From Rhodanobacter sp. FDAARGOS 1247 (lineage in GTDB: Bacteria > Pseudomonadota > Gammaproteobacteria > Xanthomonadales > Rhodanobacteraceae): a DNA stretch of 64,000 nt. A model generated the notes under the pieces. The model was not told the origin of the DNA, ran no database searches, and saw nothing but the letters and a program-made list of their open reading frames with translations. A program made the position numbers and the translations under genes. Below, in pieces: positions 51,710 to 57,903 of the stretch. The stretch is taken from the NCBI RefSeq assembly GCF_016889805.1, contig NZ_CP069535.1, forward strand, positions 1,240,001 to 1,304,000, written 5' to 3'. Position 1 is the stretch's first letter, and every line of letters begins with the position of its first letter.

Positions 51710-53581
51710 TCAGCCGGACAACTGCGCGCTCACGTCGTTGATCGAATCGCGGATGCGCTTGCTGAAGACCGAATCGTCGTGGTGGATCAGCAGCAGGTGT
51801 TCGGTGGCGCGGGTCATCGCCACGTAGAGCAGGCGGGCTTCGTCGGCTTCGCTCTGGCCTTCCTTGGGCAGGCCGCCGATGCCGGGGATGATCACGAACG
51901 GGAACTCCAGGCCCTTGCTGGAGTGCATGGTGACCAGCTTCACGCTGTCCTCGACCACGAACAGCGTCTGCTTGCCGGCGTTGTCGGCCAGCCGGCTGGG
52001 GATGTCCAGGCGCTTGAGCACTTCGTGCAATTTCTCGCCTTCCCACTGGTTGCGATAGATCACCGCCATCTCCGAATACGGACGGCCGTGCGCGTGCTCG
52101 TCGCGCAGCCGGGCGATCAGCACGTCCATCTGCGCGCGGGCGGTGTCGGTGCGCACCAGCTCGGGCACGGCGCCGCGGCGGCCAGCGCTTTCCGGCGGGA
52201 TCAGCGGCACGCCGTCGCCGTCGGCATCGTCGAGGCGCGCGGCCAGCAGGTCCTGGGCGAAGGCGCGCGCCACCGAGAGGATTTCCAGCGTGTTGCGGTA
52301 GTTGAGCTTGAGGATGGTGGTGCGGCCCTGGGCCTGCACGCCGAGGCTTTTCCAGCTGATCTTGCGGCGATTCGGGTTGCCGTAGATGTTCTGCGCGTCG
52401 TCGTACAGCACCAGCAGCGAATTGGTGGCCGGGTCGATCATCTGCACGATCAGCTTGTACCAGTCCGGCTCGAAGTCGTGGCCTTCGTCGACCAGCACCG
52501 CGCCGTACTGGGCGCGCGGAATCTGGCTGCGGTCGACGCCGGCGATCACCGCCGGCGGCAGCGCCTCGATGAAGGCCTTGCCGCTGCCTGCCGGCAGCGG
52601 CTCGTTGTACGCCACCAGCATCTTGCGGCACCACTTGTGGAAGTTGTAGACCTGCACCTTCTCGCCCAGGCCGCGCTCGCCGATCAGCTGTTCCAGCCGT
52701 GCGGCGAGCGTCCTGTTGTAGCAGAGCACCAGGATGGGTTTGGTCAGTTCGCGCGCCAGCTGCATCGCGCGGAAGCCCAGGATCATCGTCTTGCCCGAAC
52801 CGGCCACGCCGTGGATCACGCGGTGCTCGCCGCCCAGCGAACGCGCCAGCTGTTCCTGCTGTCCGTCCATCACCTTGATCAGGTCGGGGATTTCCAGCGG
52901 ACGCACCGCGGCATCGGTGGGACCGAACAGGCCGAACTGGCCGCTGCCGGCTTCCACGCGCAGTTCGGGGAACAGGTGCCAGCGCACGCGATCGATCTGG
53001 GGCAGGGTCATGGTCACCGGAAACACCTGCGGGAACATCGCCCACAGCCGCTCCTGGAACGCTTCGGCGTCGACCGTCTCGTACAGTTCGTCGCGGCAGA
53101 TCACCAGGTGTCCGGGCAGCACCTCGCCCAGCGCGCCTTCGTCGAACTGCTTGCGGGTGATGTTGGCCAGCACCACGCCCCAGCCCCACGGCATGATCAG
53201 TTTGCCGGCGTAGCGCGAGCCTTCCGGATAACGCAGCGCCGGGTCGCGTTCCAGCACCACGCCGATCTCCAGTGCATAGGCACGCGCCTGCAGCAGCGGA
53301 TTGTTCTCCTTGATCAGGCCGCGCTCGGTGACCAGGGTGAACTGGGTGCTGTCGGCATGGCGGATGGTGTCGGCCTTCCAGTCCTTCACCTCCAGCACCA
53401 GCAGACCGCGGCGCGGGTGGAACACCACGAAATCCGGATGGCGCTGCTTCAGTCCCACCGGTACGTCGTACCACAGCAGGTAGTCGTCCTCGAGTTTCTG
53501 TTCGAGCCGCTCGGAGACGCGCTTCTCGCCGCCGGTCATCCGCGGCAGGCAGCTGTTGCGGCTGGGAATGAGTGTCGCCAC
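51710..53581 (-). CDS. NERD-domain UvrD/Rep-type helicase
   Basis: A 623-residue fusion. The N-terminal NERD nuclease-like domain (about 20-130) has D50 in RHPDFVVFHP and E64-V-K66 in LVLEVKDW, the PD-(D/E)xK pattern. Superfamily 1 helicase motifs follow: Walker A GVAGSGKTM near 256, VLVDEGHDFEPDW (motif II, DEGH instead of DExQ), LNYRNT (motif IV-like), VTMHSSKGLEFPFVII (motif V) and LLYVAMTRATEHL (motif VI). It stands alone. Such proteins are annotated as DNA repair helicases, but NERD-helicases also occur in anti-phage systems. Confidence 0.88.
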   Translation of the reverse strand: MATLIPSRNSCLPRMTGGEKRVSERLEQKLEDDYLLWYDVPVGLKQRHPDFVVFHPRRGLLVLEVKDWKADTIRHADSTQFTLVTERGLIKENNPLLQARAYALEIGVVLERDPALRYPEGSRYAGKLIMPWGWGVVLANITRKQFDEGALGEVLPGHLVICRDELYETVDAEAFQERLWAMFPQVFPVTMTLPQIDRVRWHLFPELRVEAGSGQFGLFGPTDAAVRPLEIPDLIKVMDGQQEQLARSLGGEHRVIHGVAGSGKTMILGFRAMQLARELTKPILVLCYNRTLAARLEQLIGERGLGEKVQVYNFHKWCRKMLVAYNEPLPAGSGKAFIEALPPAVIAGVDRSQIPRAQYGAVLVDEGHDFEPDWYKLIVQMIDPATNSLLVLYDDAQNIYGNPNRRKISWKSLGVQAQGRTTILKLNYRNTLEILSVARAFAQDLLAARLDDADGDGVPLIPPESAGRRGAVPELVRTDTARAQMDVLIARLRDEHAHGRPYSEMAVIYRNQWEGEKLHEVLKRLDIPSRLADNAGKQTLFVVEDSVKLVTMHSSKGLEFPFVIIPGIGGLPKEGQSEADEARLLYVAMTRATEHLLLIHHDDSVFSKRIRDSINDVSAQLSG

Positions 53582-53661: not shown

Positions 53662-54591
53662 TCAGTCTCGGCCGGCCGGCACGTTCCACCGGTGCAACTG
53701 CTCGGGCGGCATATCCATGCGCCGGCAGGCGCGGCTGGCAATGCCGTCGCGCAGGGCGGCGCGGAAGGCTGGCGCCATCAACCACAGCGCGCGGGCGGCA
53801 ACGCGGGCCTGGCGCTGCTGGCGTGGCGTGCGCTCCAGCAGCGTGATGGCCCAGTCCGGCAGCAGGGCGCTGCCGGCCAGCAGGAACAGGTCGCGCGACA
53901 GTCCGGCGGCCGGCACCGGCAGGCGCACCTGGCCGAGCAGGCCGAGCACCACGCGGGAACGTTCGGTATAGGCCAGTTCGGGCTGGATGCGCCGGAAATA
54001 CGCGGCGACGTCCCGTTCGCTGGCGGGAACATCGCGCGCGCCCAGCGCCTCGGCGATCTGCCGTACTTCGTCGTAGTAGCGATCGGCCGCGCCCGGCGGC
54101 ATCGCGATGTGGCTGTAGCTGCGGTAACCCTGCAGGAAGCAGTAGGCCTCGCTGACATGCACCCAGGTCAGCAGGTCCGGATCGTTGGCGCTGTATGGAC
54201 GTCCATCCTCGCCGTGGCCGGTGATGTGGCCGTGGATCATCCGCACGTGTTCGATCAGCGCCTCGGTCTGCGCGCGGGGCGCGTAGGTGGTGCCGCCGAC
54301 GAAGGCGGTGGTGCGGCGCAGCCGGCCGATCAGGTCGTCGCGGAAGTTGGAATGATCCCAGACCCCGGCCAGGGCCAGCGGATGCAGGGTCTGCAAGGTC
54401 AGCGCCGCGAGGCCCCCGGCCAGCATGCCGGGGAAGTCCGAATGCACGCGCCAGGTGGCGCTGTCCGGCCCGAACAGGCCCGGATCACCGTGCGGATGGT
54501 CGTAGTCGAGGCTGCCGGTGTCGGCGCGCGGAAAGGCGCGCAGCACCCAGTGGCGGATCGGTTGGCGGAGCACGTCGATGGGCGATGGCAT
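53662..54591 (-). CDS. MpaB-family (DUF2236) oxygenase
   Basis: A 309-residue protein of the MpaB/latex-clearing-protein fold. DUF2236 landmarks include VHSDFPGMLAGGLAALTLQTLHPLALAGVWDHS, FVGGTTYAPRAQTEALIEHVRMIHGHITG and DLLTWVHVSEAYCFLQGYRSY, with several His that can bind heme b. Members oxidise diverse substrates, such as mycophenolic acid side chains and rubber. No signal peptide is seen. It has no obvious metabolic partners; the gene diverges from the DAHP synthase leader. Confidence 0.85.
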   Translation of the reverse strand: MPSPIDVLRQPIRHWVLRAFPRADTGSLDYDHPHGDPGLFGPDSATWRVHSDFPGMLAGGLAALTLQTLHPLALAGVWDHSNFRDDLIGRLRRTTAFVGGTTYAPRAQTEALIEHVRMIHGHITGHGEDGRPYSANDPDLLTWVHVSEAYCFLQGYRSYSHIAMPPGAADRYYDEVRQIAEALGARDVPASERDVAAYFRRIQPELAYTERSRVVLGLLGQVRLPVPAAGLSRDLFLLAGSALLPDWAITLLERTPRQQRQARVAARALWLMAPAFRAALRDGIASRACRRMDMPPEQLHRWNVPAGRD

Positions 54592-54623
54592 GCGCCCAGT
54601 CTATCGTCTGGATGACGGGAAGT

Positions 54624-54651
54624 TTGATTTGGACGTCCATTGTGTTATCAA
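54624..54651 (+). promoter_or_regulatory. Candidate promoter for the aromatic leader and DAHP synthase
   Basis: TTGATT at 54624-54629, a 16-base spacer and TATCAA at 54646-54651. A start site seven to nine bases on would fall at about 54658-54660, on the leader ATG itself. That would fit a leaderless leader-peptide mRNA, and there is no Shine-Dalgarno tract before that ATG. The promoter overlaps the non-coding end near the divergent oxygenase gene. Confidence 0.45.
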
Positions 54652-54658
54652 TGACGCC

Positions 54659-54742
54659 ATGCATTCCGCCACCGCCCGCCTGTTCTTCTGGTTTTACGGC
54701 TATCCGAAGCCAACGGCGGCGGCGCGGGCGCGATCGTTTTGA
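54659..54742 (+). CDS. Aromatic-rich leader peptide of a DAHP synthase attenuator
   Basis: A 27-residue open frame starting at ATG 54659. Residues 8-15 read LFFWFYGY, so six of seven consecutive codons (9-15) are Phe, Trp or Tyr. It ends 22 bases before a perfect terminator hairpin and 88 bases before the start of the DAHP synthase gene. The peptide would be translated to measure charged aromatic tRNAs; when they are scarce the ribosome stalls at the aromatic codons and the terminator is avoided. E. coli pheL and trpL work in this way, though its DAHP synthase genes use repressors. A TTG at 54629 is an alternative upstream start. Confidence 0.8.
   Translation: MHSATARLFFWFYGYPKPTAAARARSF
54673..54730 (+). 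promoter_or_regulatory. Leader segments 1 and 2 of the attenuator
   Basis: CGCCCGC at 54673-54679 (leader codons 5-7) is exactly complementary to GCGGGCG at 54724-54730. A ribosome stalled on codons 9-15 would cover the first segment and free the G-rich second one. The second segment also contains GGCGG (54715-54719 and 54718-54722), which can pair with CCGCC (54767-54771) in the 5' arm of the terminator. The second pairing is only five bases long, so the antiterminator is tentative. Confidence 0.5.
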
Positions 54743-54764
54743 ACTGATCGACACAACCTCACCG

Positions 54765-54793
54765 AACCGCCAGCCTCCCTGGCGGTTTTTTTT
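54765..54793 (+). terminator. Attenuator terminator before the DAHP synthase gene
   Basis: AACCGCCAG (54765-54773), a CCTCC loop, CTGGCGGTT (54779-54787), and a run of eight T (54786-54793) form a perfect nine-base intrinsic terminator. It lies between the leader peptide and the synthase start at 54831, so it can only serve to stop transcription before the gene. Confidence 0.9.
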
Positions 54794-54830
54794 GGCCGCC
54801 TCCGGGGAACCCACCAGGAGAACCGCCGCC

Positions 54831-55922
54831 ATGCACACCACCGACGACCTGCGCATCCGCGCACTCACCCGCCTCAGCACGCCGGCCGAGGTCATGCGCG
54901 ACTGCGCCGCCACGGCGCCGGCGATCGCTACGGTGGAAGCGGCGCGACAGGCGCTGCACGGCATCATCGGCGGCAGTGACGACCGCCTGGCTGTGGTGAT
55001 CGGGCCGTGTTCGATCCATGACCCGAAAGCGGCGCTGGAGTACGCCGGGCGACTCGCGCCGCTGCGCCGTGAACTCGGCGACGCGCTGGAAATCGTGATG
55101 CGGGTGTACTTCGAGAAGCCACGCACCACGGTGGGCTGGAAGGGCCTGATCAACGACCCCGACCTGGACGGCAGCTTCCGCATCGACAAGGGCCTGCGCA
55201 TCGCTCGCGTCCTGCTGCGCGACATCAACGCGCTGGGCGTGCCGGCCGGTTGCGAGTTCCTGGACATGATCACGCCGCAGTACATCGCCGACCTGGTGGC
55301 CTGGGGCGCGGTCGGCGCGCGCACCACGGAAAGCCAGGTGCATCGCGAACTGGCGTCGGGACTGTCCTGCCCGGTGGGTTTCAAGAACGGCACCGACGGC
55401 AATGTGCGGATCGCGGTGGATGCGGTGCAGGCGGCGGCCCAGCCCCACCACTTCATGGCCGTCACCAAGGACGGCCAGGCCGCGATCGCCAGCACCAGCG
55501 GCAACACCGACTGCCACGTCATCCTGCGCGGCGGCAGGCAGCCGAATTACGACGAGGCGAGCGTAGAGGCGGCCTGCGCCTCCATCGGCAAGGCCGGCTT
55601 GCCCGCCCGCGTGATGATCGACGTCAGCCATGCCAACAGCGGCAAGCTGCCGGAGAACCAGCCGAAGGTGATCGACGACCTCGCCCAGCGCATGGCCGCC
55701 GGCGAACGGCGCATCCTCGGCGTGATGGTGGAAAGCCACCTGGTCGGTGGCCGCCAGGAATTGCTTGTTGGGCAACCGCTGCGTTACGGCCAGAGCATCA
55801 CCGACGGCTGCATCGACTGGGACACCTCGGTCGGCGTGCTGACGAGGCTGGCACAGGCGGTGCGCCAGCGTCGCCAGCACGAGGCGTCCGCTGCCACGGC
55901 GGAGGCCATGGCGGCGGCCTGA
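54831..55922 (+). CDS. aroG: 3-deoxy-7-phosphoheptulonate (DAHP) synthase, AroG type
   Basis: This enzyme joins phosphoenolpyruvate and erythrose 4-phosphate, the first step of the shikimate pathway to Phe, Tyr and Trp. The 363-residue protein is a class I-alpha DAHP synthase: IGPCSIHDPKAALEYA with the metal-binding Cys, VMRVYFEKPRTTVGWKGLINDPDLDGSF, GARTTESQVHRELASGLSCPVGFKNGTDG and VMIDVSHANSGK are present. The ATG at 54831 follows AGGAGAA. Which amino acid inhibits the enzyme is unclear. It stands behind the aromatic leader and terminator. Confidence 0.97.
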   Translation: MHTTDDLRIRALTRLSTPAEVMRDCAATAPAIATVEAARQALHGIIGGSDDRLAVVIGPCSIHDPKAALEYAGRLAPLRRELGDALEIVMRVYFEKPRTTVGWKGLINDPDLDGSFRIDKGLRIARVLLRDINALGVPAGCEFLDMITPQYIADLVAWGAVGARTTESQVHRELASGLSCPVGFKNGTDGNVRIAVDAVQAAAQPHHFMAVTKDGQAAIASTSGNTDCHVILRGGRQPNYDEASVEAACASIGKAGLPARVMIDVSHANSGKLPENQPKVIDDLAQRMAAGERRILGVMVESHLVGGRQELLVGQPLRYGQSITDGCIDWDTSVGVLTRLAQAVRQRRQHEASAATAEAMAAA

Positions 55923-57582: not shown

Positions 57583-57903
57583 ATGATGAATGCACGCCTT
57601 GCCCTTGCTCTTGCCGCCGCCATGACCTGCGGCCTCGCCACCAGCACCGCGTTCGCCCAGGACGCGATGGCTGCCAGCTCCAGCACCGCGATGTCGCACG
57701 ACGCCATGTCGAAGGATGCGATGAAGCAGGATTCGATGAAGATGGACGCCATGAAGCACGATGCCATGAAGCACGATGCGATGAAGGCTGATTCGATGAA
57801 GCACGATTCGATGAAGCACGGTTCGATGAAGAAAGATGCGATGAAGAAGGATGCGATGAAGAAGGACGCGATGAAGAAGGACGCGATGAGCTCCGGCGGC
57901 TGA
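57583..57903 (+). CDS. Exported MXKDX pentapeptide repeat protein
   Basis: A 106-residue exported protein with a signal peptide (MMNARLALALAAAMTCGLA, cleavage near FAQ) and 13 tandem pentapeptides from residue 37 to 101 (MSHDA, MSKDA, MKQDS, MKMDA, MKHDA and so on), ending in MKKDA four times and MSSGG. This is the pentapeptide MXKDX repeat family. Met, His and Asp are potential metal ligands, so copper or iron binding is possible but untested. GAGGAA at 57571 sets the start. Confidence 0.9.
   Translation: MMNARLALALAAAMTCGLATSTAFAQDAMAASSSTAMSHDAMSKDAMKQDSMKMDAMKHDAMKHDAMKADSMKHDSMKHGSMKKDAMKKDAMKKDAMKKDAMSSGG

Follow-up and report, generated by a model that had tools for sequence, protein, structure and literature searches.

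In E. coli, the first step of aromatic biosynthesis is controlled by the repressors TyrR and TrpR together with three feedback-sensitive isozymes, and its trpL and pheL leaders are well-known attenuators (PMC11802643). Attenuation has also been described for DAHP synthase itself. In C. glutamicum, the aroR leader, coding for Phe-Tyr-Phe, stands before aroF, a DAHP synthase gene (Neshat et al., 2014, as reported in PMC11802643 and PMC4046766). There, limitation of Phe raises transcription, while Tyr availability is reported to be without effect even though Tyr is encoded (PMC11802643). An upstream frame with a Phe codon and a terminator, uORFC-13-1, has been predicted before aroF in Acholeplasma (PMC8632094), attenuation of aroF has been suggested for E. 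coli and Shewanella (PMC8632094, PMC2659441), and putative attenuators have been noted before the DAHP synthase-tyrA operon of Vibrio (PMC1173090). In S. meliloti, the trpL leader is described as leaderless (PMC10117765, PMC7298713).

We analyzed a stretch of 64,000 nucleotides from Rhodanobacter sp. FDAARGOS 1247 (the window), in which a Phe/Trp/Tyr-rich leader frame, MHSATARLFFWFYGYPKPTAAARARSF (54659-54742), is followed by a terminator and then by aroG, encoding a type I DAHP synthase. Similar to trpL and pheL, this arrangement has a leader with product codons, competing strands and an intrinsic terminator; unlike them, as each serves one amino acid, it combines codons for Phe, Trp and Tyr and precedes the gene of the common first enzyme. 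With aroR it shares an aromatic-codon leader peptide and, as predicted here, attenuation before a DAHP synthase gene, although aroR, compared here by its published description, is actinobacterial and codes for Phe-Tyr-Phe, with no Trp mentioned there. uORFC-13-1, likened by description as well, is also a predicted frame with a Phe codon and a terminator before a DAHP synthase gene, but its 24 representatives are reported only from Acholeplasma and environmental sequences and have at least one Phe codon. The trpL leader (rnTrpL) of S. meliloti is a leaderless frame beginning at the transcription start, as is predicted here; it differs in carrying Trp codons and in standing before trpE(G). An earlier note on this DNA regarded a three-amino-acid attenuator at this step as a different design from that of E. 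coli. The arrangement would differ from TyrR/TrpR control, but, as far as the sources on aroR describe it, C. glutamicum already offers an example of an attenuated DAHP synthase gene. Leader-peptide attenuation of DAHP synthase is thus known, whereas its three-amino-acid form and its spread in Pseudomonadota look new. In the open-access papers searched, no leader with all three aromatic amino acids was described ahead of aroG in Pseudomonadota; earlier lists of attenuators might hold one.

Database searches gave no named family. No Rfam family, presumably including those of the trp and phe leaders, matched the window at the gathering threshold, and the two sub-threshold matches in 54600-54840 were on the minus strand. 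NCBIfam and Pfam searches of the leaders returned no leader family (one Pfam match with E 0.089 was far below its cut-off), and a 21-aa leader had no match in plasmids, a weak test at such length.

The aroG leader and its predicted transcript

The aroG gene (54831-55922, plus strand) encodes 363 amino acids, starts at ATG 54831 and is preceded by a Shine-Dalgarno sequence AGGAGA (54816-54821). Its product is a DAHP synthase I by profile matches to PF00793 (308 bits) and TIGR00034 (522.7 bits, cut-off 173.2). The leader ORF on the same strand comprises 27 sense codons from ATG 54659 and a stop codon at 54740-54742, and has no Shine-Dalgarno sequence. Its frame is also open further upstream, from GTG 54518; we favour ATG 54659 on conservation and on its spacing from the -10 element. 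The putative control codons (54683-54703) are F9 (TTC, 54683), F10 (TTC), W11 (TGG), F12 (TTT), Y13 (TAC) and, after G14, Y15 (TAT, 54701).

The strands of the predicted switch are arranged around these codons. Strand 1, CGCCCGC (54673-54679), is complementary to GCGGGCG (54724-54730), which overlaps strand 2 (54715-54727). Strand 2 consists of GGCGGCGG (54715-54722) plus CGG and, judging by the minimum free energy (MFE) fold and by conservation, would be the 5' arm of an antiterminator that imitates the 3' arm of the terminator. Strand 3 (54764-54773) is the 5' arm of the terminator and the alternative partner of strand 2. Strand 4 (54779-54788) and the T run (54786-54793) complete the intrinsic terminator, the arms of which are AACCGCCAG (54765-54773) and CTGGCGGTT (54779-54787). 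Between strands 2 and 3, a small hairpin, CGATCG/TGATCG (54731-54750), encloses the stop codon of the leader; it is present in the MFE folds both without a ribosome and with a ribosome at W11, and might draw the arms closer to each other or delay the polymerase.

The terminator at 54764-54793 is the only one detected within 54560-54840. Since the upstream neighbour (53662-54591, MpaB/Lcp oxygenase family) is on the opposite strand, this terminator can only belong to the leader. When re-read from the sequence, all letters, codons, arms and coordinates given in the earlier note were correct, and its order of leader, terminator and aroG agrees with the terminator scan and the profile matches. Elsewhere in the window, a minus-strand gene (51710-53581) encodes a protein with NERD nuclease-related and UvrD-type helicase domains, and a plus-strand frame (57583-57903) encodes a small protein without Pfam matches that ends in many MKKDA-type repeats (KKDAMKKDAM...).

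The promoter-like sequence claimed upstream of the leader is partly borne out. An extended -10 element, TGTTATCAA (54643-54651), is present in a form that recurs in relatives, and a -35-like TTGATT (54624-54629), found in most but not all relatives of the same genus, lies 16 nt upstream of it; on the other hand, a strict sigma-70 consensus scan reported no promoter at the leader. The position of TGnTA relative to the leader start codon was compared over 98 leaders: it begins at -16 or -17 in 40 of them, and at any other single offset in no more than two. With this spacing, transcription is predicted to begin at the A of the leader ATG or right next to it. A Shine-Dalgarno-like motif was found before only one of 101 leaders (12 nt searched), compared to 95 of 101 for the longer stretch that runs from the terminator 30 nt into the aroG match. 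The leader transcript is therefore probably leaderless, as judged from these motifs. In Bradyrhizobium, leaderless mRNAs are reported to be preceded by a TGnTA motif (PMC4842269). In Burkholderia and Oxalobacteraceae, inspection by eye revealed instead a -10-like TTATAA or TTATAG ~30-45 nt upstream.

Distribution of the leader and terminator

To call the element, we applied a fixed rule: a start codon and 10-45 codons with at least four of eight aromatic, followed by a hairpin with a T run. In the order set, 60 genomes were searched and a clear type I aroG was present in 27 (24 of the 36 from the same genus and three from one other family; L028 and L029, weak and not aroG, are left out). Leader and terminator precede aroG at 26 of these 27 loci. 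The sole exception, L017 (genome G016, same genus), retains aroG and has neither. We note L017 as a natural loss of the switch and a useful comparison strain.

A scan of named genomes, from which the 80 best of at least 588 confirmed stretches were taken and which hence favours close relatives, gave 79 readable loci, 49 of them with leader and terminator. The carriers include Xanthomonas, Dyella, Stenotrophomonas, Bradyrhizobium, Mesorhizobium, Devosia, Rhizobium, Methylosinus, Burkholderia, Caballeronia, Cupriavidus, Massilia, Rugamonas, Oxalobacter and Variovorax, among others; the 30 loci lacking the element include those of enterics, Thiocapsa, Methylotenera, Thauera and Dechloromonas. An even sample of genomes from the phylum was surveyed next, with matches in 112 of 199. 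Four were already in the order set, and regions were obtained from 104 of the remaining 108, mostly the best match per genome, so that second and third paralogues, above all those of enterics, are mostly outside the survey. Here, 26 of 111 regions carried leader and terminator, each in a different genome (L106 and L161, with too little upstream DNA, were dropped from the counts; one of the two comes from this survey). The element thus occurs across alpha-, beta- and gammaproteobacteria. The same rule applied to the reverse strand called three of 217 regions; at six of eight aromatic codons, it called none of 217, against 76 on the forward strand. The selection for aromatic codons and a terminator left 101 leaders, 96 of them unique.

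Short ORFs are abundant, and the leader might be a chance frame standing before the ordinary terminator of some upstream gene. However, the neighbouring gene on the minus strand leaves nothing to terminate, and the conservation and the reverse-strand control contradict this explanation, as do two further lines of evidence. When the 400 nt preceding aroG were dinucleotide-shuffled 3000 times, an ORF with four of eight aromatic codons arose 62 times, one with five of eight plus a terminator once, and one with six of eight never. A covariance model built from 30 Xanthomonadales leaders matched 62 of the 200 genomes of the order strongly (E <= 1e-14), once per genome; at E <= 0.001, 101 genomes matched in all, the weaker matches being mostly pieces of terminators. 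All 30 strong matches that we retrieved lie before aroG. A chance origin can hence be set aside as extremely improbable. In addition, the DNA pattern TWYTWYTGGTWYTWY, corresponding to [F/Y][F/Y]W[F/Y][F/Y], occurs once in the 3.9 Mb genome, at the aroG leader.

The same data bear on a possible action in trans. The predicted leaderless small mRNA ending at the terminator resembles rnTrpL of S. meliloti as described in PMC10117765 and PMC7298713, and the leader RNA or peptide could, like rnTrpL and peTrpL, act on other targets besides or instead of attenuation. Still, beyond the aromatic block the peptide is highly variable, and all 30 retrieved matches of the model stand before aroG, so we consider action in trans rather unlikely.

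The earlier note had made its reading depend on conservation in relatives, and the frame, the aromatic codons, the terminator and the competing arms were indeed found to recur far beyond Xanthomonadales. To place the element in the history of the gene, we used a quick FastTree tree of 103 of the 137 available AroG proteins. The 59 proteins with the element require six changes on this tree (shuffled mean 33.4), or at least three by starred branches. All 59 and 14 others are on one side of a starred split, and the 30 proteins on the other side, enterics among them, lack the element. This suggests an old association of the element with aroG, with some losses or regains.

Codon signal, RNA signal and predicted folding

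Over the 101 aromatic blocks, the codon counts are TTT 212, TTC 64, TAT 130, TAC 117 and TGG 86. Phe is present in all 101 blocks, Tyr in 100 and Trp in 86; 85 blocks contain all three, 15 contain Phe and Tyr, and one contains Phe and Trp. Synonymous aromatic codons vary among the leaders, and Phe and Tyr replace one another between relatives, while Trp is retained. In the 30 Xanthomonadales sequences, variability of the aromatic block by codon position is 0.089, 0.184 and 0.297, highest at the third position; in the strand-2 block it is 0.244, 0.312 and 0.193, and the third position is not the highest.

Downstream of the aromatic block, 90 of the 96 unique leaders contain GGCGG (shuffled mean 9.9, maximum 19) and six do not. 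This motif, a copy of the terminator 3' arm, lies at a median of 11 nt past the last aromatic codon (range 8-20). It is read in frames 2, 0 and 1 in 81, 7 and 2 leaders, respectively, giving peptides such as PLAEEG, TGGRE and WRWN; hence it is the RNA, not the peptide, that is conserved there. In some lineages, strands 2 and 4 vary jointly, with CCGGCGG in L134, L135, L137 and L162, GCCCGGCGG in L206, and AGGCGGT in L075 and L076. In L092 and L171, a G-U pair is kept in the 2:3 helix. The Rhizobium-type L103, L222 and L251 have divergent leaders (SRFY.YRCSQR...), in which strand 3 CCGCTAG faces AGCGG in strand 2, and strand 4 CTGGCGG leaves a G-U pair in the terminator stem.

These observations bear on nascent-peptide arrest, for which TnaC is the model. 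Here, the peptide in the ribosome tunnel would sense a free aromatic metabolite and stall. Part of the peptide past the aromatics is indeed conserved within Xanthomonadales (YP..P..AE). However, when the leader peptides were compared by eye, no residue outside the aromatic block was fixed, and the conserved sequence downstream falls into three different reading frames. Moreover, a stall caused by surplus metabolite would induce aroG when aromatics are abundant, opposite to what a biosynthetic gene needs. We consider such arrest very unlikely.

The mean best 2:3 helix score was 17.9, compared to 12.5 (maximum 13.1) in 200 draws with shuffled leaders and 17.1 (maximum 17.45) in 200 draws with partners swapped between loci, the latter being a small excess from which relatedness is not removed. 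The covariation of stems that the earlier note had suggested checking was found in the terminator: among the 30 Xanthomonadales, 94% of the cells of helix 3:4 are paired, with 16 two-sided changes against 5.3 in shuffles (none of 500 as high), and columns 115/138 have a two-sided change in 13 of the 30 sequences. In the antiterminator, 84% of the cells are paired (shuffled mean 81.2; none of 500 as high), but the core of five pairs is unchanged in all 30 sequences, making covariation nearly silent (two two-sided cells). The perfect 7-bp pair that had been thought to bracket the aromatic codons as in classic attenuators is exact in the window and corresponds to a putative protector helix 1:2, which is well kept only in a part of the order. 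In this helix, 70% of the cells are paired, a value reached by 99 of 500 shuffles, and two-sided changes occur in six cells, reached by 5 of 500 shuffles, with four of the seven pairs affected. Judged by conservation, the better-conserved candidate switch is thus strand 2 with GGCGGCGG against the terminator 5' arm, rather than the 7-bp pair.

The mechanism that we propose has the following steps. Transcription would start at the leader AUG. With plentiful charged tRNAs, the ribosome would reach the stop codon and cover strand 2, strands 3 and 4 would pair, and transcription would end. If charging of tRNA-Phe, tRNA-Trp or tRNA-Tyr fell short, the ribosome would wait on the aromatic codons, covering strand 1; strand 2 would then capture strand 3 before strand 4 was made, and the polymerase would continue into aroG. 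In the absence of a ribosome, helix 1:2 in this window would occupy strand 2, allowing the terminator to form.

We modelled these states by folding the RNA as it would be just before strand 4 is made, with the ribosome footprint forced single-stranded. In the window, the probability that strand 3 pairs upstream was 0.70 with the ribosome at F9, F10 or W11, 0.55 at F12, 0.53 at Y13 and 0.22 at Y15, compared to 0.02 at the stop codon and 0.14 without a ribosome. With the ribosome at W11, strand 2 forms the antiterminator in the MFE structure. Three other footprints gave a similar picture, the narrow one yielding 0.55 at W11, 0.32 at Y13 and 0.10 at the stop codon. In this model, a codon of each aromatic amino acid is placed where a stall should open aroG. 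Once strand 4 is present, the terminator dominates at equilibrium (0.83-0.98 at most codons; 0.23 at F10). The decision would therefore have to be kinetic, taken during transcription, as in known attenuators.

Over the 96 leaders, the contrast is weaker than in the window, with mean upstream pairing of strand 3 at 0.62 for a mid-block codon, 0.36 at the stop codon and 0.44 without a ribosome. The stall value exceeded the stop value in 80 of 96 leaders, while values of 0.5 or more persisted at the stop codon in 34 leaders and without a ribosome in 51, so that the ribosome-free state is not closed in the latter. Depending on which of four footprints was assumed, the best codon exceeded the stop codon in 62-70 of 96 leaders for Phe, 63-70 of 95 for Tyr and 48-58 of 81 for Trp.

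In total, the hallmarks of an attenuator are present: conserved codons for the product, presumably translated, an intrinsic terminator, and a computed 2:3 helix that excludes it. The attenuator reading proposed earlier is supported, computationally, by conservation, by the competing arms and by stall folding in the window. The aroG leader is very likely a real ribosome-mediated transcription attenuator and probably a functional one, with starvation as the predicted signal. How many amino acids it answers is less certain. The attenuator may be the same with only one or two of them mattering, e.g., Phe, and the others being passengers. Such a case is AroR of C. glutamicum, which codes for Phe-Tyr-Phe and is reported to answer Phe but not Tyr (PMC11802643); the counts of Phe, Tyr and Trp over the 101 blocks, the low value at Y15 and that at Y13 with the narrow footprint point the same way. 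On the other hand, with the standard footprint F9/F10/F12, W11 and Y13 each reach 0.53-0.70 in the window against 0.02 at the stop codon, and Phe and Tyr interchange among related leaders, with Trp retained in 86 of the 101 blocks. We regard a response to fewer amino acids as possible but the less probable of the two, and lean towards all three aromatic amino acids acting.

DAHP synthase paralogues and other regulators

Eight genomes allowed us to read two type I paralogues, and in every case exactly one of them had the leader and terminator. A class II DAHP synthase is encoded in 58 of the 60 genomes of the order set, this one included, and in 25 of the 27 having aroG. Among the regions upstream of class II genes, taken from 30 of these 58 genomes, the leader rule called one, with an ORF that turned out to be the in-frame end of a DsbB-like protein. 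Here, the class II gene (G000:C1:1141788-1143089) directly follows dsbB (PF02600) and has no aromatic leader. A conserved small frame before it, MPAWTLLWF..., was considered as a second aromatic leader and dropped, being the in-frame end of the DsbB protein (L252 429-929, PF02600, 151 bits); the frame of this type in L033 is the end of a similar DsbB-like open frame. In another genome, the class II match (G053:C1:1195810-1197119) is in four pieces with one stop and is apparently broken or frameshifted. As the aromatic leader is absent before the class II genes read and present before one type I gene, the element would govern a single member of the DAHP synthase set, which in this genome numbers two.

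A domain search found no TyrR-type domain in this genome and 12 relatives of the same genus; overall, the domain was above the cut-off in one of 21 genomes searched, as well as in the E. coli control. A TrpR-family protein was found in 30 of 31 genomes searched, including this one, with the family also matching the B. subtilis control. Co-regulation of aroG by TrpR is possible.

We read the element as a three-input OR gate on entry into the shikimate pathway, in which a shortage of charged tRNA for any of Phe, Trp or Tyr would open aroG. It would be old and widespread in alpha-, beta- and gammaproteobacteria, stand where E. coli uses TyrR and TrpR, be leaderless in several lineages and control a single inducible DAHP synthase in genomes with at least two. 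We give this reading as a whole a probability of roughly 0.6. The 96 distinct natural variants offer a means to test the number and order of codons and their distance to strand 2 against the response to each amino acid, and the leader could serve as a part for strains producing aromatic compounds. Whereas textbook control combines repressors and isozymes, all three end products here seem to be integrated by a single RNA element. Given its recurrence in rhizobia, Burkholderia, Oxalobacteraceae, Xanthomonadales and others, this would be a common form of DAHP synthase control in Pseudomonadota.
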